From a virus, in the IMG/VR virus record IMGVR_UViG_3300017956_001865, positions 1-26,495 of that record: a stretch of DNA of 26,495 nt. One strand, given 5' to 3'. Each line of letters begins with the position of its first letter. The first letter of the stretch is position 1. The position numbers were made by a program, and so were the translations under genes. Under the pieces are notes generated by a model. It searched no databases. It was not told the origin of the DNA and saw only the letters and a program-made list of their open reading frames with translations. Shown one piece after another: positions 7,313 through 26,495 of this stretch.

Positions 7313-8598
7313 TAAAATTTCTCCTCGTATCTACTATCACCAAGTTTTCTACCAATTGCTTGTGCTAAAATATTTTGTGTAAACTCGTTACCTTCTTCAT
7401 ATCCTTGTTTTCTAGATAGCTCTAACATCTCACCGTAATTTAAATACTTATACTCATCAAACTTATCGTGAGTGATTGCCATATTTCTACCCTGATTAGT
7501 CATCATAGCTTCATTAAAGTATATGTACTGAGTGTATGCATTACTACCTTTTAGTGCATCAGGTGCACCTGCGTCCCATATAGCTTGTAATTCATCTTGT
7601 ACTTTTTTCTTACCGTCAGTAGTATCGTACATATTTTGAAACTGATTCATTTTAACTTTGTCGCTTTTAATAAACTCACCGGCTTTACCACCAACAATTC
7701 TATCTATGTCATCTGATATAGATGATAAGTTCTTAGTTAAATCTAATGTGAACGGGCTTTGAGTACCATAGATAGAACCTTTGATGCTATCAAAGTATTC
7801 ATTAAAGTCTTCGCCTAAGTCTTTATCCATAAACATTTTTTCTACAATGTTTTTTAATACAGCTTCGTTTTGTATATTACCTTCAGTCCATAATGCTTTT
7901 AGGTTTGCATATATCTCAGGATTATCAAATTTAAAATTACCTGCATAATCATCTAATACAGTATCAAGTGTTTCTTCTTGTGCTTGTTCCCATGCTGCCA
8001 TAGCACCCGGACCTGTAATCTTAGCATTTGTATAATCTAGTAATCTAAAATTAAATTCTGTACCCATAGGTAATGCATCTTGTATAGCTTGTCTATTAAC
8101 TTCTATACCTTGTATCGCAGCTTGAAACACTATATCTAGTACCTCATCATAATCCTTATTAAGGTATGGTCCCCACTTTTTCATAAACTTATCTGCTTGC
8201 ATATTCATTAACTCAAATGGGTCAAAGCCTCTTTGATTTAAATAAGCAGGTGGTAATTGATTAGCTTTACCTAAGTTAATACTCTCTGCAATAAATGCAT
8301 CAGATAACATAGAGCCATCATATACTTTTAATGATTGTACAAACTCACCTGTATCAGATTGCATTTGCACATCACTACCAAGTTTAGGACCATTAGGGTC
8401 TGTATATTCAAAGAATGCATTGACTTGTTCGCCATCTAGTTCTGTTGTAAAGACTACGTAGTATGTGTTACCTTTCTTATAAATAACACTATTAGGATTA
8501 GTAGGTACTTTACTAAGTACATTATGATATCCTACTTTACCAATGTTTGGGTCTCTTTCACCTAAACCATATACTCCATCTATTTTTGGTTGTCCCAT
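7312..8598 (-). CDS. Putative internal virion (ejection) protein, 428 aa
   Basis: No family is recognised. The N-terminus has a beta segment (VIYKKGNTYYVVFTTELDGE and NAFFEYTDPNGP). The rest is mainly helical, with NMQADKFMKKWGPYLNKDYD, a long Glu/Gln helix (MAAWEQAQEETLDTVLDDYA), and a charged C-terminus (NILAQAIGRKLGDSRYEEKF). It has no signal peptide or membrane segment. The ATG overlaps the stop of the 2577-aa giant (TAATG) and has GGAGG upstream, so it is translated from the same message. Co-transcription with a giant protein and with the 363-aa protein, and the absence of any tail-type feature, point to an internal virion or ejection complex. This is inference from context. Confidence 0.5.
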   Translation of the reverse strand: MGQPKIDGVYGLGERDPNIGKVGYHNVLSKVPTNPNSVIYKKGNTYYVVFTTELDGEQVNAFFEYTDPNGPKLGSDVQMQSDTGEFVQSLKVYDGSMLSDAFIAESINLGKANQLPPAYLNQRGFDPFELMNMQADKFMKKWGPYLNKDYDEVLDIVFQAAIQGIEVNRQAIQDALPMGTEFNFRLLDYTNAKITGPGAMAAWEQAQEETLDTVLDDYAGNFKFDNPEIYANLKALWTEGNIQNEAVLKNIVEKMFMDKDLGEDFNEYFDSIKGSIYGTQSPFTLDLTKNLSSISDDIDRIVGGKAGEFIKSDKVKMNQFQNMYDTTDGKKKVQDELQAIWDAGAPDALKGSNAYTQYIYFNEAMMTNQGRNMAITHDKFDEYKYLNYGEMLELSRKQGYEEGNEFTQNILAQAIGRKLGDSRYEEKF

Positions 8599-11500
8599 TA
8601 CTTAAGTCCTCCCGGTATATTATATATATCTTGTGGTTTTTCAAACATGTATTCAGGGTCACCGACTCTTTCTGTTTTATCTTTATTAAACATTTTCATA
8701 TTTCTCATTTGTCTATTTATAAATCTTCTAGCTGAACTGTAGTAATCATCACTATAATTATAAGATAGATGTTTAGTCTTAGCTAGGTCTGAGTAAGATT
8801 TCTGTATATTAGCTAACCATTCTTCTTCTGTATCTGCTTTATAATTTTCTGCAATTAACTCACTACGTTGTCTGCCTTGTTCTAATTGTCTACCTATGTT
8901 ACGTGGTCCACCTTCCATAAAACCTTCAAACAATCTACCAACAAAAGTGACAAAACCTATGTCAGTATTAATACCTTTTTCTTGCATGTTATATACTTTA
9001 ATTGTATTGTCGTATTGCTCTTTAGTTATCTCACCCATATCTAATTGTTCTTTTAATTTAGTTTTCTTCCCTAATAGTTTTTCTTTTTTATTAAATGGTA
9101 TCTCCATTATTTTTTGAATAGGATAAAAAACTTTATTCAACGCTTGTTGTGCCGGTTTTGTGTTTGCATGGTTAATAAATTCTTCATATGACATACCTGC
9201 TGTATCTTTATTATAAGCATTAAAAGCTAATATCATATCTGCATAAAACGCTGCTTGATTAACTCGACCATAAGCACGTGCAGGTTTAGTAACTAAAGTA
9301 TTTGTAAGATAGGCAGACTTAGTAGTTCTATACCAATCTTCAAATACTGAAGCATTTAAATCAACACCCGGTTTTGTTGGAAGACCTAATATTCCTGTTT
9401 TGCGATATATTTGTCTAGGTGTTCTTTTTATTGCACCTCTTGTTTGACCGGTAAAGTATGGTTCTGTAACATAATACCCTACATATACTCTAGGTCCTGA
9501 TTTACCTGCATGCTTATTATAAAAGTATGGTAACTCAGTTAATGTTCTAAGATTTCTAAAGTATCTCTTAAATGGATTTACATTCTCGTATGCAACCATA
9601 GATGTTTGTGGTCCTGCACCTGTGTACATAGTAAGTGCTTTACCTCTGCCAAAGTTATATTGATACTTAGCTTTAGAATATCTAATGTTTCTAGTAGCAT
9701 CTACAATGTTTTTAAGTACTGTAAAATCTCTAGGTGCTTTAACTTTTTTAGCTGTAGGTGCTGTAAATGCATTGTTAAATGGGTCACCCTCACCAAAGTT
9801 AGGACCTCTCTGTAAAGCTATAACACTATCATCATATAGCAAAGAACTTTGACCACGTAGTATTAAATCACTAGGACCTTGTGGTGGTCCTAATGGTATT
9901 GCAGGTCTAGCAGGTTCTACTATTTGCCAACCTAATGGACCTCGTTCAGCAAGTGTCTTATTACGTGTATTACCTGCTAATAACATTGGTGTTGTTGGTA
10001 TATCAATAATTGTATTTATGTATTCAAATAATGTATCTTGTCTATTTCTAATGTGTGAACTGATGTTTTCCATTTCAATTGTATAAGTTCTAATTAAATC
10101 ATCTTCAGCTGACCATGGTTTTATTACTTCGTTAAGTGCGTCTTTAGAAAACTGCATCATAAACATTGAACCAAAGTCTTTAAAGTTTGTTCTATCAATA
10201 GGACCTTTAGGTGGCTCTACTAATCTGTCAGTCATAATTTTATATTTATTTTTGGTATCTTCCCACCATTGACCTATATTTCTACCATCTTCTGTAAATC
10301 TGTTTGATTTAATATTTTCATATGTAGATTCGTATATGTTGTATGTACCTTGAAAGTATTCTTGCAATTGTTTATTGTCAGGTGTGCCTTCTATTTGTGG
10401 TAGCTTACTTACATCTACGCCTTGATTAAACTTATGCAACATTTGTATAAAATGAAATTCAGCTTCTCTACCTGATATCTTAAACTCTTTTGTATCAGGA
10501 ATAATAGGTTTCATCAAACCTGTTTCAGAATCAAAAAACATAGTGTCATGTAAGTTATTAGCTAGTTCTAATGCATTGTCAATATTTTTTCTTCCGAATT
10601 TTTTTTCTGTTAAGTCTTGTAACACCTCTACATATTGTGCTATTTCAAAATTTACACCGTCTTGTAACAATTTATCTTGTATGCTTTTCATATCTGATAT
10701 GTCTAAAGATTTATTTCTCAATAATATTGGAACCATAAATTGAGTAAAAGCTCTAACATCAGGTGCAGTCTGAAGTAATGCTTTGTCTATTTTTAATTTA
10801 GCTATTGGGAAAGCACCTGCATCATCTAATCCATAAAATGATTTAGTGCCTTTTTCTGCTACAAACTCTCTACTATATGACAATGCTCTAGCCTCTGCCA
10901 TTTTAAATGTTTCATTAAGTCCATCTTCTAAATATTCAAATGTAAGTTCTAATTGTTTTATCTTTGTTTCATCTGTAACTTTTGATAATGTTTCTTCTTT
11001 TAATGTTTCGTAGAAAGCTTTTATTTCTTTAATTTCTTCTCGCATTTGTTTTTGTAATGCTTCCATACCTACGTATTCTGATAAACTATCACTATACAAA
11101 TATGAATTTAAAAACCCACTTTTTAATACACTAGAGTTTTGATTACCATTTATAGATGTATTGTTTACATAACTGCTTGGTTGTTCTACTTCTAATATAT
11201 GTTGCAGTGCCATTTGAGCTTCTTTACTATTAGATAATGATTCCATTAAACCTATAGAAGGGTCTTTTAAAAACATTTCTATATGATAAAAAGCATCTGA
11301 ACCTTTAGACGGAGCTACTATAAATGGATTAAAGTTTTTTCCTTGTGATGCTTTTATTTCCCATTTGTCAGGAATATTAGATACTAACTTAAAACCTATA
11401 TTACTATCTCTTGTCATTCTATTGTATGTATATACCATATTTTGTAATCTTGCTTTAGTAGTTTTCTTTAGCTCTGTTACATCTTCAGGTTGTACTGTGA

Positions 11501-14500
11501 ATGCATCACCATCACCTGACAATAGTTTAAATACATTGTTGCCAAGTACCTTTTTCTTAAACTCTGCAAAGTTAATTTTATCTATACCTTTTGCTGATAA
11601 CTCTGCATCTAATATTTTCTTTAAGTTATCAGGACGTAGTGCTAATCTTTTTAAATTAGTTTCTAATACGAATGTTGCATAATTTAAAGCAAGTGGGTCA
11701 TTAGTAATATATCTATATAGTTCAGGGTAATCATCAGGTGGAAATACTTTCTTTAATGCATTGACCATATCTCTTGGGTCTAATGAAGATATATCTCCAC
11801 TCAATAATGTGTCTGCCACTTCTGTTATATATTCTCTTAAACTTTTAGCATCATTAAAATCTACTTTAGGTGCTTCACCTTTATTAGTTAATTTATACAT
11901 TTCATCTACTAATAAAGATAAAGAACCTTTATCAACAAATACAGTTTGTGCAATCATTGGTAATATAGACTGCATACTGTTTGTCATAGCTTCATTGTTA
12001 ATAACAATATCGCCATACTCTGCTGTAAAGTCTTTTATAAATTTATCTTGTATAGCAGGATTAACATTTGTGTCATTCATCATTAATGCTTGTAACGCAG
12101 TTGGTGATGAAGCAAAGAAATTTTCTAATCCATCTTTAAATATATGAGGTAAAAACTCTGAATCTAAAGCTTCTGTAATTAACTTAGATTTATACAATTC
12201 ATCATCAAATGGTTCAATCTCATTACCCATGTAATTAACACTGACTTCGCTACCAAATAAATTATCGACACGTAATTTACTTTCACCTAAATAAAAATTA
12301 GACCAATCATATATAATTCTTTGCAAAGCAGCAAATGGGTCTACTACATTACCAGGAAAAAATCCTAGTCGTTTATATATATCACCCATGTTTATAGCAG
12401 CATCAAATGAATTATTAAAAAATTCTATACTAGGTTTTGCTTCTAATTGAGAAAATACATCTTCTAAACTTTTTTTAAATATATTAAATTCACCAACTGT
12501 TTTTTGTTGTCTTAATTTTTCTATATTATTTGCTATTGCATCTTCTTCTGTTAGAGATAAAGCTCTGCCTTGACCATTAGCACTAGATATAATACCTTCA
12601 ATTCGATTTACAATTCTTGCAACTTCTCTTATCCAAGTATATTTACTTCTATTACCTTCATACTCAAGCTTTTCATTACCATAAGTTTTTATTACTTCTT
12701 GATACGCTTGATAAGATTCAAGCATGTCTGCTAAATCAGCACCTGTTAATCCTTGAAATGATTCAAGCAACGCATTCATCAAGTTACTTTTATCTGTAGG
12801 TTTCTTGTTTTTAAATCTAGGGTCAGCATCTCCTCTATCCATTATTGCACCCTCTATAGTTTCAGGGTCTATGTCTTCAGGAACAGGTGGCATAAACTCA
12901 CCTTCTACTTTATCTATAGCCCTAAGATTTTTGTAATCGTCTTTAAGCTGTGGATACTTAGTAAGCATTTCTATTTCTGCCATATGCAAGGCGTTAATAG
13001 TTTCCATAATCTTAGATGACAAGTAATCTTGATGATTACCTAATGTTTGATTTACAATTTGTTCCAATGCTTTAGCATTACCTAAGTCATCTAAATTCTT
13101 TACTGCATCTAAAAAGTTTTGTACTTTCTCCATATTGTTCTGTAAGTCATAATCTCTACTAGCCATTTCTTTTGCTATGTTTAAAGTTATTGCATCTAAT
13201 ACAGCATTGTGCCTACCCATTAACTTATAGAACATTGTTAATTTACCTAAGAAGTTTTGCTGTCTTGCTATTTCTAATTGTTTTATATCTACAGGCTTGA
13301 CAGCATTAGTTAATCCAATGTCATCTGTTAATAATGCATTTACAATTTCTTGTAGAGATTCTGATTTGAATACATCAGAATGTAAATTATTCATTAATCT
13401 ATTCATATCAAAATCTCTAGGTCCAAATTCAAATGAAGTTATAAAATTATATAGGTCAGCTATTAATGGCTCAAACTTGTTAGCAGATAAGAAAAGGTTT
13501 TGTACTCTGCCTTCGTAATTATTTTTACCTATTCTTGTAATAGCTTTAGGGTCTTGACCATATGACCAATATCTAGCATTTTGTAACTGTGCTTGTTCTA
13601 TTGCACGTAAAGCTTCATTGATAGCCTCTGCCTTTTTAGCAGAAGGACTTTTAACTTCACCTACTTCTAATAACCAAAATGGATGAGGCTCTTTTTTATT
13701 TTTAAATTTATCGTATCGAACTTTACTTTGATTAATAATATATTCTATAAGTCCTTCTTGTTGATATATTTTTAGTTCGTCAGGAAGTTTATCCCACATA
13801 TTTGTTTCAGGATTAAATTTAGATGGTATTTTAAAAGTAGCAGTAGGATTACCAATAAGCTCTATAAATCTATCTATATAATCTTGATTAGGTTTTGTAA
13901 GTTTATAATTTCCATCTTTTAATCTTTCAGTTTCACCAAACTTATATCCTTCTAATTTTTCCCAACCTTTAATATTTACTTTAAGTTCTTGACCTGCATC
14001 AAAGTTATTTAATCTTAATTTAGGATTAGTTTTTAATATCTTAATTGCATCTTTTACATTAGCTACTCCTAATTTTTTAAGTAAGTCTGCTTCTCTAATT
14101 AAGAATGCATTTTGTTTACCCTGTTCTATTAAATCTATTTGAGTAACAACATTAGGGTTATTGTAATTAGGTGCTAGTTTTCCACCTTCTAGTTGTACGG
14201 TCATAACGTTTTCCATTTTTTCGTTATTAATTACACTGTAATCATTTATAGCTACAGGGGATTTTGTATAGTCAGCTTGTACAGTGCCACCTTTCATATT
14301 ATCTTTCATGATTTGTGGCTTACCAAGTTTCTCGTAATACATATCAGGACTTACTAAAGCTTGTACTATTCTTTGTGCTAAGTCTTTATAGTATCCACCA
14401 ACAACATCAGTGTTACCTGTTACATGGATTGTGTAATCACTTATCTTGTTTTCAAACAATTGTGTAGCATTTGTATTTACATCTACTATCTTTAGCACTC

Positions 14501-16331
14501 CATCTATCTTGACCATTACTTTACCTTTACCAAGAAGTTCCTGTTGAAAATCTTCCATTGCGTTAGCAAATGTTGTATGGTCAAAGTTACTCAAATCAAT
14601 AACATATGTATTCTTTTTGACACCATCAGTACCCTGTATATTCCATTTGTTTAAAACTAAATCATTTTTAGATATTGTTCTTTCTATCTCTTTAAGTTTT
14701 GATTCAGCTGCTGCTTGCCAATATTCAAGTGGTCTTTTAAGTTGTGATTTTCTTCTTAACTCATCAGCAATTGCATCTATATCTCTATATAATAAAGCAT
14801 CAAAAGTTTTAACAACATATTCTCCTCCTGCTCTATAACCTATTACATTACGAGGTAATTTATATTCACCATATAAAGAATACATTGCTGTTTTAAGTGC
14901 AGTTTCATCAAACTTGTTACTATTAACCATTATCACATTTAAGTCAGCAGCATCAACGTTCATTTGTTTTGCTAATGAAAACTCTGCTTGTTTACCTTTT
15001 TTAACAGACCAACCTCTTTGATAATCTTGTGTGCCATCAGCATTTTTAGGTAAAGGTTTTGCATAGATATATGTTTGAGCTAGTTTAAGTAACACATCAT
15101 CATAACCCATTCTTGCCAACATATTGATATGGTTCTTTAATTCAGGACTTGCATTATCAAATAAATATTTATAAACTTTTGCGTCATCTATATCGACACC
15201 CGGTGTTACTCCTTCAGTTTTATACAATGGTGTAAGATTATACTCTTTACCTTTTTGCGGAAATATTTTTGGATTACTTACAGGGTTTGCAATAAATCCT
15301 GCAGGTGCATGTCCACCTGTTTGCATTTTATTTCTATTATGAATATCTAACGCAGCTTCTTCTATTCCCATTTGTCCTGAGTTAATGATTACAGGATTAT
15401 TACCAAACCATGAATCAGGTTGTGTTGCTTTCCATTCTTTCAAAGCATTAATCATTCCCTGACCTTTAACATCTAGTACAGGTTTATTCTTAGCTTCTGC
15501 TTTCTTTTTGTTTAATTCTTCTTGTAATTCATTATTTAGTTTCTTTAATACTTCAGGGTCTAAAAGATTTTCTCTTGCGTACTTAGCAATTAACTCTGCA
15601 TCAGCTAATACAACTTCTAATATTCTTGTAATGTCATTGTATTTATCTAGCGTCATTTCAAATACATCTACTTCACCACTAGGGTTCATAGATTTCATAT
15701 CATGTAAAGTAGCTATTTGTTCTACTGAATTTACAAACATATCTGACTGTGATGTATTAATAACTTGTTTATCACCAATCTTGTTAGTTACTTTTCTATA
15801 TGGCGTAAAAGCAATAAAGCCTTTTTCTATTGCAGTTATTGCTGCAAGTAAGTTTGTATATGCAGGTACAAAACCTGTAGGTCCATCAGGCATACGCCTT
15901 GTTCTTCCTAGTACATCTGTGTCTTGAAATGTTTGTGCTAAATCATAATTAGTTTCAGGACCTGTTGTACTCATATTTCTATAGATACCTTTGTAGCTAG
16001 GTGCATAAACTAATTCAATTATCTTAGATAATCTTTCAGCAGTAGGTTTAGATTTATCAAGTATCAATGATGAAAGTTGCACATCACCTGTAGTTTCAAC
16101 AATAGATTTATATAATCCTTTTACTAACTTGTCGTTTATACGACCTGTCTTCTTAGCTTTATCAATAAGCAGTTTTAATACTCTTAATTGATTATCAGGT
16201 ACACCTACTGTTTTACCTACTACAGATAACAACGATTCAACATCATATACCATAAGAGGGTCTTTATATGTTACACCTAATGTGTGATTAAAAAACTTTT
16301 CTAATATTTCTTTTATTTCTTTTTCATTCAT
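8598..16331 (-). CDS. Giant virion-type protein (2577 aa) with a SLOG/cpYpsA-like domain
   Basis: One uninterrupted frame takes up 29% of the window. The N-terminal 250 residues are helical. A Lys/Glu coiled coil follows at about 260-285. Residues 313-345 then read VIINSGQMGIEEAALDIHNR ... TGGHAPAGF. This resembles the S-G-G-Q-T-G-[VI]-D-x-A-A-L-D and G-G-W-x-P-x-G signatures of the cpYpsA / putative molybdenum carrier branch of SLOG nucleotide-binding proteins, with S318-G-Q-x-G and G339-G340 kept. Residues 465-660 hold further strand-then-Asn/Gly units (VIMVNSN, YVIDLSN, TIHVTGNTD). The remainder (about 950-2577) is mainly helical, ending in a basic region (about 2150-2577, KTKLKEQLDM, RRFINRQMRNMKMF). 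A giant multi-domain phage protein beside a wall hydrolase fits an internal virion or polyvalent protein delivered into the host. I looked for RNA polymerase motifs and found none I would defend. Confidence 0.6.
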   Translation of the reverse strand: MNEKEIKEILEKFFNHTLGVTYKDPLMVYDVESLLSVVGKTVGVPDNQLRVLKLLIDKAKKTGRINDKLVKGLYKSIVETTGDVQLSSLILDKSKPTAERLSKIIELVYAPSYKGIYRNMSTTGPETNYDLAQTFQDTDVLGRTRRMPDGPTGFVPAYTNLLAAITAIEKGFIAFTPYRKVTNKIGDKQVINTSQSDMFVNSVEQIATLHDMKSMNPSGEVDVFEMTLDKYNDITRILEVVLADAELIAKYARENLLDPEVLKKLNNELQEELNKKKAEAKNKPVLDVKGQGMINALKEWKATQPDSWFGNNPVIINSGQMGIEEAALDIHNRNKMQTGGHAPAGFIANPVSNPKIFPQKGKEYNLTPLYKTEGVTPGVDIDDAKVYKYLFDNASPELKNHINMLARMGYDDVLLKLAQTYIYAKPLPKNADGTQDYQRGWSVKKGKQAEFSLAKQMNVDAADLNVIMVNSNKFDETALKTAMYSLYGEYKLPRNVIGYRAGGEYVVKTFDALLYRDIDAIADELRRKSQLKRPLEYWQAAAESKLKEIERTISKNDLVLNKWNIQGTDGVKKNTYVIDLSNFDHTTFANAMEDFQQELLGKGKVMVKIDGVLKIVDVNTNATQLFENKISDYTIHVTGNTDVVGGYYKDLAQRIVQALVSPDMYYEKLGKPQIMKDNMKGGTVQADYTKSPVAINDYSVINNEKMENVMTVQLEGGKLAPNYNNPNVVTQIDLIEQGKQNAFLIREADLLKKLGVANVKDAIKILKTNPKLRLNNFDAGQELKVNIKGWEKLEGYKFGETERLKDGNYKLTKPNQDYIDRFIELIGNPTATFKIPSKFNPETNMWDKLPDELKIYQQEGLIEYIINQSKVRYDKFKNKKEPHPFWLLEVGEVKSPSAKKAEAINEALRAIEQAQLQNARYWSYGQDPKAITRIGKNNYEGRVQNLFLSANKFEPLIADLYNFITSFEFGPRDFDMNRLMNNLHSDVFKSESLQEIVNALLTDDIGLTNAVKPVDIKQLEIARQQNFLGKLTMFYKLMGRHNAVLDAITLNIAKEMASRDYDLQNNMEKVQNFLDAVKNLDDLGNAKALEQIVNQTLGNHQDYLSSKIMETINALHMAEIEMLTKYPQLKDDYKNLRAIDKVEGEFMPPVPEDIDPETIEGAIMDRGDADPRFKNKKPTDKSNLMNALLESFQGLTGADLADMLESYQAYQEVIKTYGNEKLEYEGNRSKYTWIREVARIVNRIEGIISSANGQGRALSLTEEDAIANNIEKLRQQKTVGEFNIFKKSLEDVFSQLEAKPSIEFFNNSFDAAINMGDIYKRLGFFPGNVVDPFAALQRIIYDWSNFYLGESKLRVDNLFGSEVSVNYMGNEIEPFDDELYKSKLITEALDSEFLPHIFKDGLENFFASSPTALQALMMNDTNVNPAIQDKFIKDFTAEYGDIVINNEAMTNSMQSILPMIAQTVFVDKGSLSLLVDEMYKLTNKGEAPKVDFNDAKSLREYITEVADTLLSGDISSLDPRDMVNALKKVFPPDDYPELYRYITNDPLALNYATFVLETNLKRLALRPDNLKKILDAELSAKGIDKINFAEFKKKVLGNNVFKLLSGDGDAFTVQPEDVTELKKTTKARLQNMVYTYNRMTRDSNIGFKLVSNIPDKWEIKASQGKNFNPFIVAPSKGSDAFYHIEMFLKDPSIGLMESLSNSKEAQMALQHILEVEQPSSYVNNTSINGNQNSSVLKSGFLNSYLYSDSLSEYVGMEALQKQMREEIKEIKAFYETLKEETLSKVTDETKIKQLELTFEYLEDGLNETFKMAEARALSYSREFVAEKGTKSFYGLDDAGAFPIAKLKIDKALLQTAPDVRAFTQFMVPILLRNKSLDISDMKSIQDKLLQDGVNFEIAQYVEVLQDLTEKKFGRKNIDNALELANNLHDTMFFDSETGLMKPIIPDTKEFKISGREAEFHFIQMLHKFNQGVDVSKLPQIEGTPDNKQLQEYFQGTYNIYESTYENIKSNRFTEDGRNIGQWWEDTKNKYKIMTDRLVEPPKGPIDRTNFKDFGSMFMMQFSKDALNEVIKPWSAEDDLIRTYTIEMENISSHIRNRQDTLFEYINTIIDIPTTPMLLAGNTRNKTLAERGPLGWQIVEPARPAIPLGPPQGPSDLILRGQSSLLYDDSVIALQRGPNFGEGDPFNNAFTAPTAKKVKAPRDFTVLKNIVDATRNIRYSKAKYQYNFGRGKALTMYTGAGPQTSMVAYENVNPFKRYFRNLRTLTELPYFYNKHAGKSGPRVYVGYYVTEPYFTGQTRGAIKRTPRQIYRKTGILGLPTKPGVDLNASVFEDWYRTTKSAYLTNTLVTKPARAYGRVNQAAFYADMILAFNAYNKDTAGMSYEEFINHANTKPAQQALNKVFYPIQKIMEIPFNKKEKLLGKKTKLKEQLDMGEITKEQYDNTIKVYNMQEKGINTDIGFVTFVGRLFEGFMEGGPRNIGRQLEQGRQRSELIAENYKADTEEEWLANIQKSYSDLAKTKHLSYNYSDDYYSSARRFINRQMRNMKMFNKDKTERVGDPEYMFEKPQDIYNIPGGLK

Positions 16332-17077
16332 TAGAACTTATTATATAACCTATCTAGCAAAGATTTTTCTTCTACTTCTGTACTATTATCTAAATCGTAT
16401 GTGTTAGTTGCAACACCATGTAGATAGGGTTGGTCAAATCTAGTAAAACCATATTGCTTTTCTAATACATTATGACCACTATCTATCTTACCGTACCTGT
16501 AAGCGTCCCATGCTGTACCACCATACAGACCTTTCTTTTCTCTATCCATAAATGCTTCTTTAGCAATTTCTTTTTGTACATCAAATGTGTTTGGGTCTTG
16601 AGCCCATTGCAATATAGCATATTTATTTTCAGGCATTTTTACCCATATATTTGCAGCTTCGAATAATTGTTTCTTTTTTTCTAAATCAGGGTCATCTGCT
16701 TTCCAATCATTCTTTTTAACACTAAATACTGTAGGGCTAAAACTAAATTCATCTGTATATCCTGTGTCAATCATGCTTCTCATTACCATATCTGGAAAAT
16801 TTTGAATATTAATTTGAAATACACCTACTGCTAACAAGTCACCATTCTCATCAAATGTATGTGCCATAGGATTAAAAGCTGTTTTATTCCAACTTTCACT
16901 ACCTATACCTTCTGCATCTGCAAAAGATTCCCATGCCATAGCACCAAACATATTCCATGCTTCTTCATAAGGTACAGTACCATAAGAAGTATCGCTAATA
17001 ATATCTAATATTGCTTCGTATACTTTCTCAGGTTCTACACTTGGTATAAGGTTATCTTCATGAAAATTGTATGACAT
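16331..17077 (-). CDS. Virion-associated lytic transglycosylase-like protein (about 248 aa)
   Basis: The pattern is that of an SLT/lysozyme-like fold: a helix carrying the likely catalytic Glu50 (AMAWESFAD), then FNPMAH at 68-73, then AVGVFQIN at 83-90. The last two correspond to the 'E-S ... N-P-x-A ... G-x-x-Q-I-N' signature of lytic transglycosylases, which cleave the MurNAc-GlcNAc bond of peptidoglycan. The second half (about 120-248) is helical and charged. I use the ATG at 17077, one base after the upstream stop. An ATG at 17155 would add 26 residues lying wholly over the upstream gene. There is no signal peptide in the form I chose. Position among internal-protein candidates suggests local wall cutting during DNA entry rather than lysis at the end of infection. 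Confidence 0.65.
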   Translation of the reverse strand: MSYNFHEDNLIPSVEPEKVYEAILDIISDTSYGTVPYEEAWNMFGAMAWESFADAEGIGSESWNKTAFNPMAHTFDENGDLLAVGVFQINIQNFPDMVMRSMIDTGYTDEFSFSPTVFSVKKNDWKADDPDLEKKKQLFEAANIWVKMPENKYAILQWAQDPNTFDVQKEIAKEAFMDREKKGLYGGTAWDAYRYGKIDSGHNVLEKQYGFTRFDQPYLHGVATNTYDLDNSTEVEEKSLLDRLYNKF

Positions 17078-17078
17078 A

Positions 17079-18449
17079 CTAACCCAAACTACTAAGCAAA
17101 GCCCAAAGATTTGTCCCATAATTTCGTTGTGTACTTCCTTCAGAAAATGCTGCATTGTCTTCTATTGCCATCTTTGAAATTGTTTCTGTAATCTTTTGTT
17201 CTATAAGCTGTAGTGGGTCTGACATAGGTTTAACTACACTTGAAGGTGCGTTACCTGCGACTCTATCCTGTTGTGCTTTCTTGTATATGCTTGATGCTAA
17301 ACCAAAAGCACCCATGTATTTACCTTCTGACATTTGTACATCTTCGTATATCTTTCCTACTTCTTGTGCAGCAACAGCAGCTAAATATGGATTCATCATA
17401 CTACCTGTCAATGAAAACCATTGTGACTTAGCATCTGCCATTCTAGCTTCGTAAGAAGGTGTAATTATTATTTGCATATCTGCACCCATTCTTTTTTTAT
17501 CTTTAATTAATTTGTCTGCACCTTGTATTAAATAATTATGAAACAGTTTTTTAGCATCATTACTAGATGCAACGTCTGCAAAGAATTGACTTATAGTAGC
17601 ACTATCACCACTTCCTAACGCAGTTTCAAATGCACCTGTATCTAAACCTAGTTCTGTCATATCTTTGAGAAGTTGAGATGCACCCGGTAAATACTGACCA
17701 CTTCTATTTAAAGTACCCATTAAATCTTCCAAAGCATTAATAGTTGCTTGGTCAAGTTGATTAGGAGTAAATATAGTTCTATCTTCTTGACCTACATAAT
17801 CTCCTAATAAACCTAATTCAATTAACCTAAGCTGTACATCTTGTAACCATGTTTGACCATTTTTTTGTATGTGTGGGTCAGAATATAAATTAGTTTCCAT
17901 ACCGTATGTGAATAGTGGTATAGTTCCACTACCTGATATATCTCTCCTACCTATTGCAGGATTACCACTAATACCATAAAATTGACCTGTCATTAAGTTA
18001 GCTACTGCTATCTGTATTTGTTCCTGTGATAAATCATTACCTAGTATTTCTGCTACACCTGCTTGTGACTGTATCCATTCTTCATATTCTCTTTCAGCAT
18101 CAGTCATTCTGCTTTGGTCTAATATATCTGCCCATAGTTCAGGTGCTTCTTCTACTAATGTAGGTAATGCTATATCTAAATCTTCTTTTCTTTTTGATAA
18201 AGCATTTATGTTGGTGTCAAAATAATTAAATATATTCTTACCTTCTGTTAATAACCTACGATTTAATTCTATTATTTCTGCATCACTTAATTCATAAGGC
18301 ATAGAACTTGTTATTTCATTTATTTGTTTTTCTATAGAACTATCATTTAAAAAGGCTTGTTCTTTAGTACCTTGTGCTGTAAACAAATCAGCTACAATAT
18401 AGTATTCAAGTAAAGGTAATATTTTGTTATAAGCTTCTTGTACTGTCAT
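17079..18449 (-). CDS. Putative internal virion protein, 456 aa
   Basis: This gene starts by a 4-base ATGA overlap with the 1721-aa gene. The product is helical and soluble. The N-terminal 140 residues are acidic (KEDLDIALPTLVEEAPELWA). A segment at about 210-255 (WLQDVQLRLIELGLLGDYV ... LDQATINALEDLM) recalls peptidoglycan-binding domain 1 (the usual V-x-x-L-Q-x-x-L-x-x-L-G start and an 'A-t-x-x-A-l' second helix), though the match is partial. The C-terminal part has an Ala/Gly-rich helix (PYLAAVAAQEVGKIYEDVQM) and GKYMGAFGLASSIYKKAQQD, which could be amphipathic. Its direct neighbour is the transglycosylase-like gene, so a wall-binding or ejection-channel role is possible but unproven. Confidence 0.5.
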   Translation of the reverse strand: MTVQEAYNKILPLLEYYIVADLFTAQGTKEQAFLNDSSIEKQINEITSSMPYELSDAEIIELNRRLLTEGKNIFNYFDTNINALSKRKEDLDIALPTLVEEAPELWADILDQSRMTDAEREYEEWIQSQAGVAEILGNDLSQEQIQIAVANLMTGQFYGISGNPAIGRRDISGSGTIPLFTYGMETNLYSDPHIQKNGQTWLQDVQLRLIELGLLGDYVGQEDRTIFTPNQLDQATINALEDLMGTLNRSGQYLPGASQLLKDMTELGLDTGAFETALGSGDSATISQFFADVASSNDAKKLFHNYLIQGADKLIKDKKRMGADMQIIITPSYEARMADAKSQWFSLTGSMMNPYLAAVAAQEVGKIYEDVQMSEGKYMGAFGLASSIYKKAQQDRVAGNAPSSVVKPMSDPLQLIEQKITETISKMAIEDNAAFSEGSTQRNYGTNLWALLSSLG

Positions 18450-21400
18450 AATTCAAATCCGTCAAATAGTGGTAAGTCCATTGTATCAGTATCTCTAAAC
18501 TCTCGCACACCAACATTATAAAACCAAAAGTAAAAATCAGGCGATATTCTCATCAATTTATCGGCTACATCTTGTAACAATGCACGTTCTTGTTGTGCAT
18601 CACTTCTTGCTAATGAAGCTGTAGCATCACCTGTTCTGAACCTTAATCCACCTAACATTAATTCTCTTTGTTGTAAGTATGCATTTAAAACATTAGCCAC
18701 AGGTAAATCTTTTACTTTTACACTACGACCATCAGGTAGCTTAACTACAGTATCTGCTTCATTCTTTAACATACGCTTTAATTCGTCCATTTGAGAATCA
18801 ATAGGCACAGCACTTATAGACGGGTACTCTTTTATCTGATATACGTCTGCTAGCTCTATAACGCCCATTTTAAACAAGTTATCTCTAGCTGTAGCATCTA
18901 GTGCCATGTTAGGATTTTCATACAAATTACGTCTTAAATTTTCTTTAGCTAAGTTAAATAGTCCTGTTTTGTATCCATCTTCATACCACTCATCTAAACT
19001 TCTAGCTTTTCTAGCACCTGTAATAAATGCGTTAGTATATGCTGTTAAATAAAATTCATCAGTAGGTGCATCAGGAAATAACCAATATGCAACATTAGGA
19101 TGCTTTGCAAATAAATCAGGATTAGCTGCAGCAAAGAATGTACCTTTCTCTGTATATGATGTAGGAACATTTTCTCTAGATTTAGAAGTAGTTAATGCAA
19201 CAGGATTAAATCCAAACTGTTTTATAAACCAATCTGTAGCTCTTAACTCATCGCCATCATATCTAGCTAACGCTCTGTAGTATGCATCACTAAACAATGT
19301 AGTTTCAAACCATTGTGGGTTTTCTTCTATCTCATCAGGTGTTAGATGTAATGCTGCACCCGGTGCTGTTGTCTTGTAGTCATACTTAACAAATGCCTGT
19401 GTAGGTAATACAAATTGAGTTGCAGCTCTATACAGCACAATATTTCTAGCACCTTTTTTAATTCTATCTAATGATTTAGCTTGTAGTTCAGGTGTAGAGT
19501 CATCATACAATCCTGTATCAAGATGTACCTGCATAACTTGTATCATTGTATCTTCAAATAATTTTCTTTTTTGTGGGTCATCACTATATATAGATTGTAT
19601 TTTTCTTACCCAACCCGGTAAAAATTGTGCTGATATTTCATCAGGTCTTCCAAATGGAAATATAAGTTTTTCCATATCAGTATTTAATTCTGCCGGTGGC
19701 AACATATAATTTATAGGTACAGTTGCTAATGGTCCTAAACCTAGACCTATACCACCTGTAATCATATTTAATCCTTCTAATCTAGAAGGTGTTTGAACTC
19801 TAGCTTGTACATCACCAACTTGTTCATCACTATTACCTACTGACCATTTAGTAAGTAATCTATCTCCAAACTGTGAGAAGTTATAAAATTCTTCTCCTGT
19901 TTGTGGGTCTGTATAAATAAATCCACTTTTCTTTGCACCGTCAATACCCATTTGTAAGTAACGTGGTATAGCAGGGTTTTTAGATAGCAACTTTTTCCAT
20001 GTTCCTAATACTTCGATATACACTTCAGCGAATGGAATAAGGTTACGTAGTATCTCAGATGTTACATGTCTTTTGTTTAAGTCATACAACAAGTGTTGTG
20101 TTTTAGTTAGAGCTTGTGCTTTAGCCATGTTATCTACATTTACAATATCACTATCTAATAAAGTAACTTTATAATTACCTGTTTTTTGCTCAGCAATACC
20201 TTTCTTAAGTTTCTTACCAAGACTACCTTTCATAACATTAGACTTGTATGCCATACGTGTTACTTGGTCACGTAATGCATTATCCATATGTGGTAACAAG
20301 TCAGCTATTTCGTCCCAATAAAATTGCCTAAAGGCAGGTGAACGTGACAATTGATTTGTAGGTCTTGACATAAATACATCAAATAAACTTTCCCAAGCTT
20401 TGTCTAATGAGTCACCCCACCCGTGTGATACATCGAATCTTTGTAATTTTACAGTAGGTGGTCTATTAGGAATTTTTTTTGTACCTAACCATTTTGTAAA
20501 TAATTTATACGCTTCTTGTGATTCACCTTCACCAAGATTAATAATATATTCTTTTTGAGTAACAGGATTAACCATATCTCTTAATGTAAATTGTGATATT
20601 AAACCACCTTCTTTAGGAGAAGCACCTAAGAAATCTTGAATAAGTTCTCTGTCACCTTGTTTAGTAATACGATAAGTAAATGCATCATTAATCCATTCTT
20701 GAGGATTTATTTCTTCACCCATTCCATATACACGACCGGTAGTTGTATTTACAACTTCATATGCACCACCTGTTTCATAATGCATACGAGCATAAACTGA
20801 TTCAACATATTCTCTAGCTTTTTGGTCTGATTCTAAAACTATTTTTTTACTATTAACAAAAGCATCATCAACATTTCCTGCAAATGCTTCTCTAATGTAT
20901 CTAAGGTCACCGTTAGTAAATCTTTCTACTATCTCATCTAAACTAATTTGTGTCATACCTGTACGGTGAAACTGTGCTAGTTCTTTAACTAATGGGTCTT
21001 TCTCTAATATAAATAAACCTCTAGCCCAACCTTTATCAAAACCTTCTATATCAGGACCTGTAGGTCTGTTTACATATTTCCAATATCTAGAACGTTCAGG
21101 GTCTACACCTAACCAACCACCGTGACCTACAGACATAGATGCTATATGGTCATAATGATGAGATGATATATTACCTGTAATGTCATACATTCCTTTACTA
21201 AATCTATCTTGAAACTTTTGAAATGCTATAATTGCTTCTTCTTCATCACCTTTGATTTTTGTAACAGTTTTCAAAAGTTTACTTCTTTCTGCAGGTGTTC
21301 TACCTAATACCCAACCCATCCATGACAATGGGTGATAAAATACTGAATCTAAATTAGCAGATGCCATACGTAATTGTTCTTCACCTATAACACGTGCTGT

Positions 21401-23611
21401 CCATGCAGGACGTAACAACACTAATGGTTTCCATAAACTTTGCATAATCCCACTAGAAAGTCTAGTGATAGCTGCTTCTTGTAAAGATATAGCATCTTCT
21501 ATATATTCACCACGCTTAGAAACTCTTGTTGCTTTAGCTACAAAACCTTTATAAAACAAATCCTCAATAGCTTCTAATCCTTTTAATGAACCGTGAGCAA
21601 CATCATCTAATTCTCTTTTTACTCCTAGTTCTATAGCACGTGCTAATGGTTTGTTCATAAATTTTTGTACACTTGCTGTATCTGCTAAACCTAATGTCAA
21701 TACTTTTCCTATAAACGTACGCAGAGGTCCAACAAGTTTTATAAAAGTTCTAATATCAGGCATTGGTATAAAACCTTCTGATACATACTCTGATATAAGC
21801 TGAGCAGTAGGTTGTGATATAAATATTTCTTCACCATTAACTTTTAATGATTTAAATTTTTGACCCGGTATTATCTGACCTGTATTAATACCTATACCTT
21901 CTTTTTGTCCTAAAGTAACAAAATATTTTCTAGTTTCATCAACTGATGCCCACCATTGTTCTACACCTTTTAATACTGACTCAGGTATTCCTGCATTTTT
22001 TAAACTATCAGTAATTTCGTTAAGCACACCTGTACCGGCAGGGTTATTCCATATATCAACAATAGTGTTAAAGTTATCAACAAAGTTTAAGTCATCAGTC
22101 ACAGCTTGACGTGATGCCATCTCTGCAATTCTATCTAATACTTCATCTTGTTTCTTAATAGATACATTTGCAAACTTCATCCATTCTGATAATTGTTTAT
22201 ATGTTCTATCTAGATTTCTAACTTCTAATTTTTCTACAGGAAATGCACTAGCTAACATTTGTCCTAATGCTGTACCATCTGCACCTAAAGACCTAACTGC
22301 AGTTGCACTACCTACATCAAAACCATATTGAAATCCTTTACCTTTAGCAGCAGAATATAAACCACCTGCAACTCTAGTAGGTACTGCACGTGTTAATAAA
22401 GAAGTAGCATCTAATCTATGTTTAATTGATGTACCCATATGTGGTACAAGTAAATCAATAACTTGTTCAGGTGTATCTGCTTTTTTAATTGCACCATACA
22501 ATGCAGCAGTACCTTCATACTTTAATAATGCTTGTATTTCACTATGTGTTTTAGCATTAGCTAAGTATTGTGCGATACGATATCCTGATTCAGATTTTCT
22601 AAAGTAATCATTAAGTGCAGGTTTATTAATTAAACGTCTGTACATTGTATCTACTAATCCTGCAGAACGTGCTGCACCTAAAGCCTCACCACTTTCTATA
22701 AAACCTTTTGTATATACTGAAGGTGCTTTTTTAACTTGTGCTGCTAACTTTCCGTAACCTGAACCTAGCCATAATCCGGGGTCTGTACCTAATCTCCATG
22801 CACCATCAAATATTGTGGACATTAATTTAAATTGCCAATCGTCCGGTTCAAATAACTCAACTGCTATGTTTCTACCAATAGACAGAGGAACTGTACCATT
22901 GTTAGTTGTGTAGCTACCAAAGTTAGCAACTTCTTCTCTGTAGTCACTTGTTATAGGAGCACCCATTTCTTCTTGTAATCTTTGTCCAACAATATTAGGG
23001 TCAGCACCCATACCTACTAACTGTTTAAATATTTCAGTATCTTCTGCCTTTTGACTTTCTCCTAATATTCCATCACCAAGATTTACTTTTTCTCCGGCTT
23101 TCATTTTGTTAATTGCTTGTACAAATGGTGTATCAGGTTGTGCTCTGTAATAATTCATTACGTCATCAGCATATGAAGGGTCAAGAGTACTCATAGCACC
23201 CCAAGCTAATATATTCCATGGCTTCATACCTCTATCCATTAATGCCATAGCATTTGCTTTATAAGTTTTATCTATAGAGTCTGCCATTGATTGCAAACCG
23301 GTAAAAGCCATACGTAATGCAGACTTACCTGCTTCTTTAAACTTTGATTGTTCCTCTGCTTCGTTCTGTAGCCACTTATCTACTATTGCGTCCCACTCAG
23401 GTCTATTAGGGTCTAATCCATATAATGATGCACCAACAATAGTATCGGTAGGTAGAAAGCCAAATGATACAGAGTTTTCTTGTAACCGAGATGTAAATTG
23501 TGGATTTTGAGATACGTAGTTTCTAAATGCTTTACGTTTTGCATTTTTAGCTTCTGCTTGTTTTGCAGCTTTATCCTCCATCCATGGAGGCATGTGATAG
23601 AACAAAGCCAT
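18446..23611 (-). CDS. Giant putative internal virion / ejection protein (1721 aa)
   Basis: The frame is unbroken and there is no recognised enzyme motif. The sequence is rich in Trp, Tyr and Phe and alternates helical blocks with short linkers, for example DDWQFKLMSTIFDGAWRLGT, VEQWWASVDETRKYFVTLGQ and AEVYIEVLGTWKKLLSKNPA. A Gly-rich hydrophobic stretch near residues 1275-1305 (about 19700-19790) and the repeated aromatic helices could insert into membranes. The N-terminus is basic and charged (DKAAKQAEAKNAKRKAFRNY). Being the first large gene after the portal, coupled to the 141-aa gene by a TAATG overlap and to the 456-aa gene by ATGA, it has size and setting like T7 gp16 (1318 aa) or gp15, which form the DNA ejection channel. 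A tape-measure role is less likely, because no tail-tube or chaperone genes are near. Confidence 0.5.
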   Translation of the reverse strand: MALFYHMPPWMEDKAAKQAEAKNAKRKAFRNYVSQNPQFTSRLQENSVSFGFLPTDTIVGASLYGLDPNRPEWDAIVDKWLQNEAEEQSKFKEAGKSALRMAFTGLQSMADSIDKTYKANAMALMDRGMKPWNILAWGAMSTLDPSYADDVMNYYRAQPDTPFVQAINKMKAGEKVNLGDGILGESQKAEDTEIFKQLVGMGADPNIVGQRLQEEMGAPITSDYREEVANFGSYTTNNGTVPLSIGRNIAVELFEPDDWQFKLMSTIFDGAWRLGTDPGLWLGSGYGKLAAQVKKAPSVYTKGFIESGEALGAARSAGLVDTMYRRLINKPALNDYFRKSESGYRIAQYLANAKTHSEIQALLKYEGTAALYGAIKKADTPEQVIDLLVPHMGTSIKHRLDATSLLTRAVPTRVAGGLYSAAKGKGFQYGFDVGSATAVRSLGADGTALGQMLASAFPVEKLEVRNLDRTYKQLSEWMKFANVSIKKQDEVLDRIAEMASRQAVTDDLNFVDNFNTIVDIWNNPAGTGVLNEITDSLKNAGIPESVLKGVEQWWASVDETRKYFVTLGQKEGIGINTGQIIPGQKFKSLKVNGEEIFISQPTAQLISEYVSEGFIPMPDIRTFIKLVGPLRTFIGKVLTLGLADTASVQKFMNKPLARAIELGVKRELDDVAHGSLKGLEAIEDLFYKGFVAKATRVSKRGEYIEDAISLQEAAITRLSSGIMQSLWKPLVLLRPAWTARVIGEEQLRMASANLDSVFYHPLSWMGWVLGRTPAERSKLLKTVTKIKGDEEEAIIAFQKFQDRFSKGMYDITGNISSHHYDHIASMSVGHGGWLGVDPERSRYWKYVNRPTGPDIEGFDKGWARGLFILEKDPLVKELAQFHRTGMTQISLDEIVERFTNGDLRYIREAFAGNVDDAFVNSKKIVLESDQKAREYVESVYARMHYETGGAYEVVNTTTGRVYGMGEEINPQEWINDAFTYRITKQGDRELIQDFLGASPKEGGLISQFTLRDMVNPVTQKEYIINLGEGESQEAYKLFTKWLGTKKIPNRPPTVKLQRFDVSHGWGDSLDKAWESLFDVFMSRPTNQLSRSPAFRQFYWDEIADLLPHMDNALRDQVTRMAYKSNVMKGSLGKKLKKGIAEQKTGNYKVTLLDSDIVNVDNMAKAQALTKTQHLLYDLNKRHVTSEILRNLIPFAEVYIEVLGTWKKLLSKNPAIPRYLQMGIDGAKKSGFIYTDPQTGEEFYNFSQFGDRLLTKWSVGNSDEQVGDVQARVQTPSRLEGLNMITGGIGLGLGPLATVPINYMLPPAELNTDMEKLIFPFGRPDEISAQFLPGWVRKIQSIYSDDPQKRKLFEDTMIQVMQVHLDTGLYDDSTPELQAKSLDRIKKGARNIVLYRAATQFVLPTQAFVKYDYKTTAPGAALHLTPDEIEENPQWFETTLFSDAYYRALARYDGDELRATDWFIKQFGFNPVALTTSKSRENVPTSYTEKGTFFAAANPDLFAKHPNVAYWLFPDAPTDEFYLTAYTNAFITGARKARSLDEWYEDGYKTGLFNLAKENLRRNLYENPNMALDATARDNLFKMGVIELADVYQIKEYPSISAVPIDSQMDELKRMLKNEADTVVKLPDGRSVKVKDLPVANVLNAYLQQRELMLGGLRFRTGDATASLARSDAQQERALLQDVADKLMRISPDFYFWFYNVGVREFRDTDTMDLPLFDGFEL

Positions 23612-24036: not shown

Positions 24037-24229
24037 TTATATCGTCCTCTTGTATAAATTCTATTCGTATAAAACCTAATCCCGGAAAATGTATTTCAGG
24101 TAATTGAAAGTCACCTTCTACTGTTTCGTTGTAGGTATCTAATTTAGCTTGATGCTTAGCCATTATCTGTTCGGCAACGCTAACATCATATCCAAATTCT
24201 TTATATATAATTTCGTTAAACTTGTCCAC
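24029..24229 (-). CDS. Small 66-aa protein overlapping the portal gene end
   Basis: The family is unknown. I chose the GTG at 24229 because GGAGG lies 5 bases upstream of it. This gives a 14-base overlap with the portal end. A GTG at 24268 would extend the frame by 13 residues but has no good ribosome site. The product starts with a helix (DKFNEIIYKEFGYDVSVAEQ) and ends with a beta-like acidic segment (FQLPEIHFPGLGFIRIEFIQ, then EDDING). Its overlap with both neighbours shows that it belongs to the portal transcript. A small head-assembly or regulatory protein is possible. The frame is convincing as a gene mainly because of the ribosome site and tight packing. Confidence 0.55.
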   Translation of the reverse strand: MDKFNEIIYKEFGYDVSVAEQIMAKHQAKLDTYNETVEGDFQLPEIHFPGLGFIRIEFIQEDDING

Positions 24230-25952
24230 CAACACCTCCAAATGCTTGTTGAACACTAGGCAATCCACCTTGCTGTGCCATAGCAGCAGCTTGCATCATT
24301 GCTTGTTGTTCTTCTTGTGCTTCTTGTTCTGCTGCAAAGAAATCATTTAATATATTTACCATATTTTTTGGTTCTTTATATATCTGACTTAATGCATTCA
24401 TTGCTTGCATGTTGCCCTGTTGTGCTTGTGCAAGTAAAGAATCAAACAAAACTCTTTCAGCTTTTTCTTTTGTTATTCTGTCATTTATCAATTGCAAATT
24501 ATCAAGACCGTCCATTTCTTCTTGCATGGTTTGTCTGTCGATAATACCCGCTTGCAATAATTGTAAACCTGTAATAATTTTTTGAGGTTCATCAAAGCTA
24601 GCCATAGCACCATACTTACGCACAGTTTTATATGCACCTTTGATATCTCTATCAGGTGTGTAGTTTTCTTCAAATATGCTACCTCTGTATATTCCTGATA
24701 TTGTTCTTTTAACATTACCGAACATAAGCTCATCATATTCAAGTCGTTTCATATCTACTTGTTCTAAAGCATTTCCTAATATTGTGTGATACTCACGAAC
24801 TATTGCACCAACACCACTTTGTAATTCTTCTAGTCCTCTACCTGTTACAAATGAGTTTGGTGAGATAGCGTCATCTTGTACCGGATATCCGGCTACGACT
24901 CGCAATTGTCTTTCAAGACGACTTACTTGGTCAAACAACTGATAAGGCAGATTGTTCACCGGCTTTACAACTTGTGTACCCGGAGATAGGTAATTTATTG
25001 CGTGCCTACCTTTTCTATATTGTCCTGACTCTAACTCACCAATCACATTTGTTTCGGTAAATACAGCATCTTCCATGGCAATAACAGACATAATGTTTAT
25101 CTTTGCCATTGCTGACATTAGACCGATTACTTGGTCAAATTGACCCTGTAATTTATCAAAGCTAAATCTTTTAGCCACAACGAATTGCGGACCTGATTTT
25201 AATGGATTAGGAATAAAATCCAATATTCTTTTTGCACCTGGGTGTACTACGTATGTACCTGTATCTTCCATATACTCTACAATGACATCTCCACCTTTTT
25301 GTGTTTCCCATCTAGGTTCGTCATTAGAGTTCATATTGCCTGTACCTACTAACATTGTGCTACCGGCTTTACGTCTATTTTTACTATCGTAATATGGTTT
25401 TAATTCAGGATACATTTTAACTAATGTTGGTGGAGGTACTCTACGTATAACAGCTAACTCTTGTGGTTCTTGACCTACACCATAGTAACCCGGATAGCAA
25501 TCATAAGGGTCACGTAATCTAGCACATGGATATGGAACTCCACCCGGTCCATATTTTGTTTCTATTGTCCATACTGCAAAACCATAACCCGGTAGCCATC
25601 TACCTACTTGTGGTAATTGCATATCTAGTTTCTGATGTTCGTCATAAGAATTAACAATACGTTCTAATTTATCTCGTCTATCTTTAGCTCTTACGCTATC
25701 TTTATTAACAGCTAAAGGTATTTCAAGATTAGGAACTCTACCTATCTTTTGTGCAATTCTATCTAACGCAGATAAAAGCAAGTTAGGTGCAGGTAACTCT
25801 CCTTGTGATGTATCAGCAGTATTACCTAGCAATTCTCTTATGCCGTCTGAACCACCATTTAATATATTTCTAAATCTGTTTCTATCAGGTAAAGCTCTGT
25901 CGTGTAAATCATATAGCTCAGAAACTCTATCTATGATGTTATCTATTTTCAT
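24216..25952 (-). CDS. Portal protein (578 aa)
   Basis: This is the ring protein at the unique head vertex through which DNA is packaged and ejected. It starts at the base after the terminase stop (TAAATG, preceded by GGAGA), the usual terminase-portal order. Visible family-like features are an N-terminal helix (MKIDNIIDRVSELYDLHDRA) and PAPNLLLSALDRIAQKIGRV. A wing region carries AVWTIETKYGPGGVPYPCAR and RDPYDCYPGYYG. A long central helix pair includes DQVIGLMSAMAKINIMSVIA. The crown-like C-terminus is rich in Gln, Ala and Met (EEQQAMMQAAAMAQQGGLP). The length is normal for portals of short-tailed or siphovirus-like phages. No fused MuF or protease domain is present. Confidence 0.85.
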   Translation of the reverse strand: MKIDNIIDRVSELYDLHDRALPDRNRFRNILNGGSDGIRELLGNTADTSQGELPAPNLLLSALDRIAQKIGRVPNLEIPLAVNKDSVRAKDRRDKLERIVNSYDEHQKLDMQLPQVGRWLPGYGFAVWTIETKYGPGGVPYPCARLRDPYDCYPGYYGVGQEPQELAVIRRVPPPTLVKMYPELKPYYDSKNRRKAGSTMLVGTGNMNSNDEPRWETQKGGDVIVEYMEDTGTYVVHPGAKRILDFIPNPLKSGPQFVVAKRFSFDKLQGQFDQVIGLMSAMAKINIMSVIAMEDAVFTETNVIGELESGQYRKGRHAINYLSPGTQVVKPVNNLPYQLFDQVSRLERQLRVVAGYPVQDDAISPNSFVTGRGLEELQSGVGAIVREYHTILGNALEQVDMKRLEYDELMFGNVKRTISGIYRGSIFEENYTPDRDIKGAYKTVRKYGAMASFDEPQKIITGLQLLQAGIIDRQTMQEEMDGLDNLQLINDRITKEKAERVLFDSLLAQAQQGNMQAMNALSQIYKEPKNMVNILNDFFAAEQEAQEEQQAMMQAAAMAQQGGLPSVQQAFGGVGGQV

Positions 25953-26495
25953 TTATCTCCAAGGTACTTCATTCCAAGTTGATTCGTTATAACCAGAATA
26001 ACTTGGCTCGTAATCATATTCCATGTTAGCATAAGAAACTTTACTTAGTCGCCTAATAACTTTCATAGGAAACCAACTAGCCATAACTATGTCGGAAACG
26101 TGTTTGTTTTTAGATTGACCTTTGCTAGCAAAATATACTAACTGTTTTTTATATAAATCTACTTTGATTTGTGACTCAGCATTCTTGTAAGGTAGAACAA
26201 CTTTTCTATCTTCAAACAAGTTAGCCATAGCTGTAACACCAAATGCAGGGTCCCATTTGTTTTTGTATGTTTCATGTCCTTCTAAAATAATGCCTCTTTG
26301 GTTGCAAAAATCTTTTATACGTGTATCTTGTCTAATAGCTTTCTGAAAGTTGTTTTCTTCAATTACCCAATGATACAATTCATATCTCTGATTCCATTCT
26401 TGTATAACTCTTAATGCTTGGTCTATACCACCACCATGTTGATTGTCTATATCTACTAACACCATCTTGAATGGTTCATAAGTAACTGCCCATAA
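25953..26495 (-). CDS. Terminase large subunit, C-terminal nuclease domain (partial, 180 aa)
   Basis: The frame is open to the right edge, so the N-terminal ATPase lies outside the window. The visible part is the RNase H-like nuclease that cuts concatemeric phage DNA during packaging. Metal-binding positions can be seen in order: VLVDIDNQHGG (Asp15 or Asp17 of the visible part), WVIEENNFQ (Glu46/Glu47), and HVSDIVMASWF (Asp135), the usual D...E...D arrangement. ILEGHETYKNKWDPAFGVTA between them fits the beta-hairpin region. The C-terminal tail (YDYEPSYSGYNESTWNEVPW) is aromatic and may dock to the portal. An internal ATG at 26465 is not the start, because the frame continues upstream as LWAVTYEPFK. 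Confidence 0.85.
   Translation of the reverse strand, partial: LWAVTYEPFKMVLVDIDNQHGGGIDQALRVIQEWNQRYELYHWVIEENNFQKAIRQDTRIKDFCNQRGIILEGHETYKNKWDPAFGVTAMANLFEDRKVVLPYKNAESQIKVDLYKKQLVYFASKGQSKNKHVSDIVMASWFPMKVIRRLSKVSYANMEYDYEPSYSGYNESTWNEVPWR

Follow-up and report, generated by a model that had tools for sequence, protein, structure and literature searches.

Viral SLOG domains are typically standalone proteins, and the domains named as encoded by virion genes are Macro, NADAR and Nudix, not SLOG (PMC9503650). As a group, viral SLOG domains have been proposed to cleave the N-glycosidic bond of a nucleotide, for example cyclic ADP-ribose (PMC9503650), and to counter NAD- and ADP-ribose-based immunity. 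SLOG is also absent from the main text of a survey of polyvalent proteins (PMC5512222). The subject here is a SLOG-like region within a 2577-residue protein (the giant) of an uncultured tailed phage, encoded in IMG/VR virus record IMGVR_UViG_3300017956_001865, of which positions 1 to 26,495 (the window) were analyzed. The region resembles the viral SLOG domains described so far in being phage-encoded and in belonging to a YpsA-like clade, but differs from them in being part of a far larger protein. We found no literature account of a SLOG domain within a giant virion protein; this is weak evidence, as most subscription papers lay outside the search.

Three other described systems offer partial parallels. 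Like the polyvalent proteins (PMC5512222), which are thought to be packaged and injected, the giant is very large and is encoded in a terminase-portal block, but polyvalent proteins carry several effector domains, whereas searches of the giant against Pfam, PHROGs, NCBIfam, PADLOC and PDB profiles revealed no other credible domain. Elsewhere in the giant, Pfam matches to SHOCT (E = 0.0045) and DrrA1-3_C (E = 0.098) fall far short of the respective cut-offs, and we did not count them as domains. The internal or ejection proteins of short-tailed phages, such as T7 gp16 (PMC8954989), are likewise huge, encoded in a virion gene cluster and, as may be the case here, accompanied by a wall-lytic protein; however, gp16 has 1318 residues, includes a transglycosylase domain and is proposed to possess membrane segments, whereas no segment of the giant rises above a simple hydropathy threshold. 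Finally, the SLOG sensor of ThsA in the Thoeris system (PMC7272460 and general knowledge) is similar at the superfamily level only, and ThsA serves as a sensor in host defence rather than as a component of a virion. The analogy to ThsA, drawn by a first-pass annotation of this DNA, is a lead only, because the match is partial, insertions are present and further pocket residues are gone.

The interpretation that best accommodates the data, and which we hold tentatively, is that the giant is a virion-borne protein with a SLOG-derived, probably non-catalytic site for a small ligand. Residues ~314-664 would constitute a SLOG domain from the cpYpsA branch, divergent and carrying insertions, an assignment based on a sequence profile for the first 40 residues and on a seeded structure model for the rest.

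The giant gene occupies positions 8598..16331 on the minus strand, which also encodes the portal and major capsid proteins and the 1721- and 274-residue neighbors described below. The start codon of the giant gene shares bases with the stop codon of the gene preceding it (TAATG). The motif corresponds to residues 313-345 (15297..15395), which read PVIINSGQMGIEEAALDIHNRNKMQTGGHAPAG and are followed by the codon for F346. It comprises the first strand, the GxxG loop and a helix (INSGQMGIEEAAL), plus TGGHAPAG. The stretch INSGQMGIEEAALD...TGGHAPAGF spans residues 316-346, where the first-pass annotation had placed it. Within the window, a degenerate GQMG pattern is found a single time against 0.01 expected, and the presence of the motif in the giant is confirmed as a real feature of the sequence, beyond chance.

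The family to which that annotation had assigned the motif, PF12694 (cpYpsA, the circularly permuted YpsA branch of SLOG), is borne out by profile searches and modeling. In Pfam, PF12694 matches residues 315-354 and is the sole family found at this site, with E-values of 0.0053 when the full giant was queried, 2.6e-4 when a 167-residue fragment was used and 4.8e-6 when the search was restricted to this genome. Of the six family members that we aligned, comprising the window and five diverged relatives, five match it independently, and there are no matches in 14 control genomes. The SLOG-type LDcluster4 model has no match in the window. For comparison we assembled 16 viral cpYpsA proteins through the canonical DNA pattern GGQTGVDxAAL, of which six were compared with PF12694 and match its full length at 92-179 bits. 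Across 84 windows of the giant, hhalign comparison with the N-terminal cpYpsA profile gave scores of 49-52 (peak 51.8) where the window held the whole motif, whereas the top motif-free window scored 18.1 and the median was 10.2, so that the motif is singled out within the entire protein. Downstream, the block Y..RT..NV..AD finds its best position in the whole giant at residue 451, in the expected order (4.5 bits; next best -0.7). Placement of the other two C-terminal cpYpsA blocks was unsupported by the block scan, and an in-order test of all three was not significant against shuffles (5.7%). Weak matches of PHROG 6244 and PHROG 24440 at residues 454-495 were dropped, as true cpYpsA proteins do not match these families.

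A joint alignment places N458, T481, P493 and G639 of the giant at conserved cpYpsA positions. Seeded with the 16 cpYpsA rows, AlphaFold returned a model with pTM 0.66 and pLDDT 64.3, for which 3IMK, a PF12694-type structure, is the top Foldseek match in the PDB, with a probability of 0.99, an E-value of 0.021 and a TM-score, normalized to target length, of 0.61; the other PDB matches listed have probabilities ≤0.12. Against BFVD, the best named matches are a DprA-like protein of Clandestinovirus and a 'molybdenum cofactor carrier' of Medusavirus. Contrary outcomes that the first-pass annotation had named, no SLOG match at all or a helical fold without the loop, were not what we found.

Together, the joint alignment, the seeded model and the match to 3IMK suggest a complete but divergent cpYpsA/SLOG domain across residues ~314-664 (14340..15392), close to the extent of 290-670 that had been guessed (~312-664 here). 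It would be interrupted by three insertions of about 70, 80 and 30 residues. Insertion 1 (residues 371-444; 15000..15221) is mostly helical in both the seeded and unseeded models and is poorly conserved. Core segment 2 (residues 445-495; 14847..14999), placed by the block scan, would consist of a helix, the third strand (NVDAADLNVIMV) and a helix bearing T481; both N458 and T481 are common to true cpYpsA. After the poorly conserved insertion 2 (residues 496-573; 14613..14846) come core segments 3 and 4 (residues 574-664; 14340..14612), whose secondary structure appears in both models and which hold G639, also common to true cpYpsA. Here, a strand-helix unit (TYVIDL...) is followed by an inserted β-hairpin (604-617) and a second strand-helix unit (YTIHVTG...).

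Relatives of the giant are few. Whether the query was the domain, the entire giant or a conserved segment from its middle, IMG/VR yielded the same six other contigs. The giant is full-length in five of them, being 100% identical in one and 51-64% identical in the others, and in the sixth it shows 67% identity over the first half and is interrupted by Ns. An apparent split of the gene into two open reading frames in relative G004 (L084:18839-18849) was traced to a run of Ns in the assembly. No homologs were found in 50,697 cultured phage records, a match in Asesino phage (E = 0.4) was rejected as chance, and a search of GTDB genomes with the domain gave no match. Beyond the group, DNA scans for variants of the motif turned up nothing better than chance in viral contigs, and 84,980 bacterial and archaeal genomes contained no match.

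Conservation among six giants centers on the two loops that form the SLOG pocket. Nine columns are invariant across these giants and the 16 viral cpYpsA proteins: G319, G322, A326, A327, L328, G340, N458, T481 and G639. The giants also retain Q320 (five of six), an acid at 324, both glycines of TGG, P343 and G345. The first loop and helix read NSGQMGxEEAAL versus SGGQTGxDxAAL, with the GxxG glycines and AAL kept and the serine, first glycine and threonine changed. The second loop, GGxxPxG, is present as TGGxAPxGF, invariant in all six. The signature GxD/E of the YpsA clade, represented by G53 and E55 of B. subtilis YpsA (PMC6459960), is found as an invariant G322-x-E324, which we read from the sequence as the likely equivalent. 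The YxxRTxxNV motif is absent as such, the giants having F..(A/S)K..NV with the N and V kept and the R and T absent; the GTxLT loop and LNVAGxR strand motifs are likewise absent, with only T481 and G639 retained and G477 and R641 replaced. Compared with PF12694 proteins and 3IMK, the giant thus has the IxSGxxGx(D/E)xAAL helix, the GGxxPxG loop and then, in order, the N-V strand, a threonine and the glycine of the last strand, but it scores below the cut-off, carries three insertions and has lost pocket residues, and its domain is embedded in 2577 residues, whereas 18 viral cpYpsA open reading frames (two of them partial) have 41-400 residues. The first-pass annotation, correct as to the family, had overlooked the partial, sub-threshold nature of the match and the insertions. 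It had named the Gly-to-Ser and Thr-to-Met substitutions, which we see as G318S and T321M, but missed the loss of the R of YxxRTxxN, the G of GTxLT and the R of NVAGxR.

Segment 308-370, which holds both glycine loops, ranks in the top 1.5% of same-length windows of the giant for conservation. Invariant columns make up 20% of residues 371-440 and 18% of 496-573, versus 37% of the giant overall. Since the pocket loops are strongly constrained and the insertions are not, the site would appear to have a function, which could involve either a ligand or a protein partner.

Several observations weigh against a ligand-binding SLOG domain in the virion. At 17-21 bits, the PF12694 match falls short of the curated cut-off (26.2), no relative exceeds that cut-off, and the match covers profile positions 1-41 of 145 and then stops. 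The C-terminal two thirds of the domain are not significant by profile alone in hhalign or the block scan, and single-sequence alignments put the last segment in differing places. An unseeded AlphaFold model, built from only six relatives, is poor (pLDDT 45.7, pTM 0.31), although its secondary structure already includes a helix-strand-helix unit (443-487), a strand-helix unit (575-601) and a further helix (646-660). A PDB search with this model found nothing, a result that is meaningless given the quality of the model. The seeded fold is support rather than proof and is partly circular, because the added cpYpsA rows bring the fold along. Canonical pocket residues are replaced (S317N, G318S, T321M, R454A/S, T455K, G477 by various residues, R641T/S), changes that speak against binding of the usual ligand and perhaps of any ligand at all. 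The place of the giant in the virion, moreover, comes solely from the position of its gene.

The partial, sub-threshold match and the empty-handed unseeded model would also suit a convergent motif, that is, a loop-helix with a glycine signature arising by chance in an unrelated fold. We regard this as very unlikely, given the hhalign score of the motif relative to the best motif-free window, the GxxG loop and GGxxPxG in register with a third motif in order, and 3IMK as the best match of the seeded fold. The region is very probably homologous to SLOG and, as judged from sequence and model, appears to be a divergent SLOG-derived domain with a remodelled pocket instead of a canonical cpYpsA member.

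What that pocket does is harder to decide. The losses in the pocket and the three insertions fit a domain of cpYpsA origin that no longer binds a ligand and is used, within a virion or ejection protein, as a folded brick or a surface for interactions, and so does its occurrence in all group members within a core virion block, and not as a sporadic accessory gene. We consider such a structural relic almost as likely as a binder of small molecules. Counting against it are the peak of conservation at the two pocket loops and the invariant G322-x-E324, because a pure brick need not keep them. At the other extreme, the retained acid E324 would be compatible with a catalytic SLOG domain that, as proposed for viral SLOG domains in general, cleaves nucleotides such as cyclic ADP-ribose at the N-glycosidic bond; this is most improbable, as R454, G477 and R641, which are fixed or nearly so in the 16 cpYpsA proteins, are absent from the giants.

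The genomic context points to the virion, as the first-pass annotation had proposed. The giant gene falls between the portal and major capsid genes, within a conserved head/portal block. In three relatives of 43-45 kb and 34-35% G+C, the order is TerL, portal, proteins of 141, 1721, 456 and 274 residues, the giant, proteins of 428 and 363 residues, a scaffold-like protein and the major capsid protein, followed by more late genes. The portal protein (24216..25952) was identified by a profile match to the portal of Streptomyces phage WRightOn (E = 4e-30) and the major capsid protein, of SU10 type (4457..5554), by PF17236 (E = 3.4e-39) and PHROG 1328 (E = 3.5e-29). The portal is closest to Streptomyces Beephvirinae phages, and the best matches of the terminase (25953-26495) include the same phages (E = 1.5e-38). 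In WRightOn, the portal-capsid interval encodes the 1644-residue gp10, a peptidase and a glycosylase, with no detectable homolog of the giant. The 1721-residue neighbor (18446..23611) is a possible equivalent of gp10, given a weak profile match (E = 0.0044) and its place in the same interval. The 274-residue neighbor (16331..17155) looks like a lytic transglycosylase by eye and alignment (E76, AWESFAD...GVFQIN) and is possibly a wall-degrading virion protein; no convincing match to it was found in Pfam, PHROG, NCBIfam or the PDB. Judging from the position of its gene, the order kept among relatives and the comparison with the related block in actinophages, the giant is most likely a virion part, and the arrangement fits that of internal virion or ejection proteins (compare PMC8954989).

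The giant could instead be made late and act in the infected cell, for example in assembly, which would be compatible with any reading of the domain. No homolog exists in the cultured phages searched, and we know of no virion proteomics for this phage group, which we counted in favor of this alternative. It is nonetheless rather unlikely, since the gene sits between the portal and capsid genes near those of other large proteins, as in the actinophage block with gp10, the peptidase and the glycosylase.

Other features of the group were noted in passing. The portal and terminase are distantly akin to those of Streptomyces Beephvirinae, yet the group has only 34-35% G+C (G003, G004, G006), and no tRNA genes occur in the relatives read. 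The 1721-residue neighbor is 86-88% identical in three relatives, versus 51-67% for the adjoining giant. A tryptophan-halogenase-like protein (PF04820, E = 7e-39) ends the late gene block in one ~44-kb relative (L083:2215-3327), and relatives encode an AAA_5/MoxR-like ATPase adjoining a 638-residue protein without a Pfam match (L081:4340-6944).

If the giant does carry a small-ligand site in the virion, it would most likely be one of several large proteins of the portal-capsid interval that exit the head along with the DNA. Its domain would most likely retain the SLOG fold together with both pocket-forming glycine loops, and the changed pocket would bind a small nucleotide-derived ligand without catalysis, acting as a sensor or sponge upon entry of the giant into the cell. 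A special case of this proposal is a pre-loaded sponge, its pocket adapted to a different ligand from that of known cpYpsA proteins, which captures an immune or metabolic nucleotide signal before phage gene expression; this we think unlikely. The first-pass annotation, in speaking of injection, nucleotide binding and action on host signals, had overstated the function, which is conjectural on all three counts. A SLOG-derived domain in a large protein of the core virion block would put binding at the first moment of infection, or would show a nucleotide-binding fold recycled as a part of the virion.
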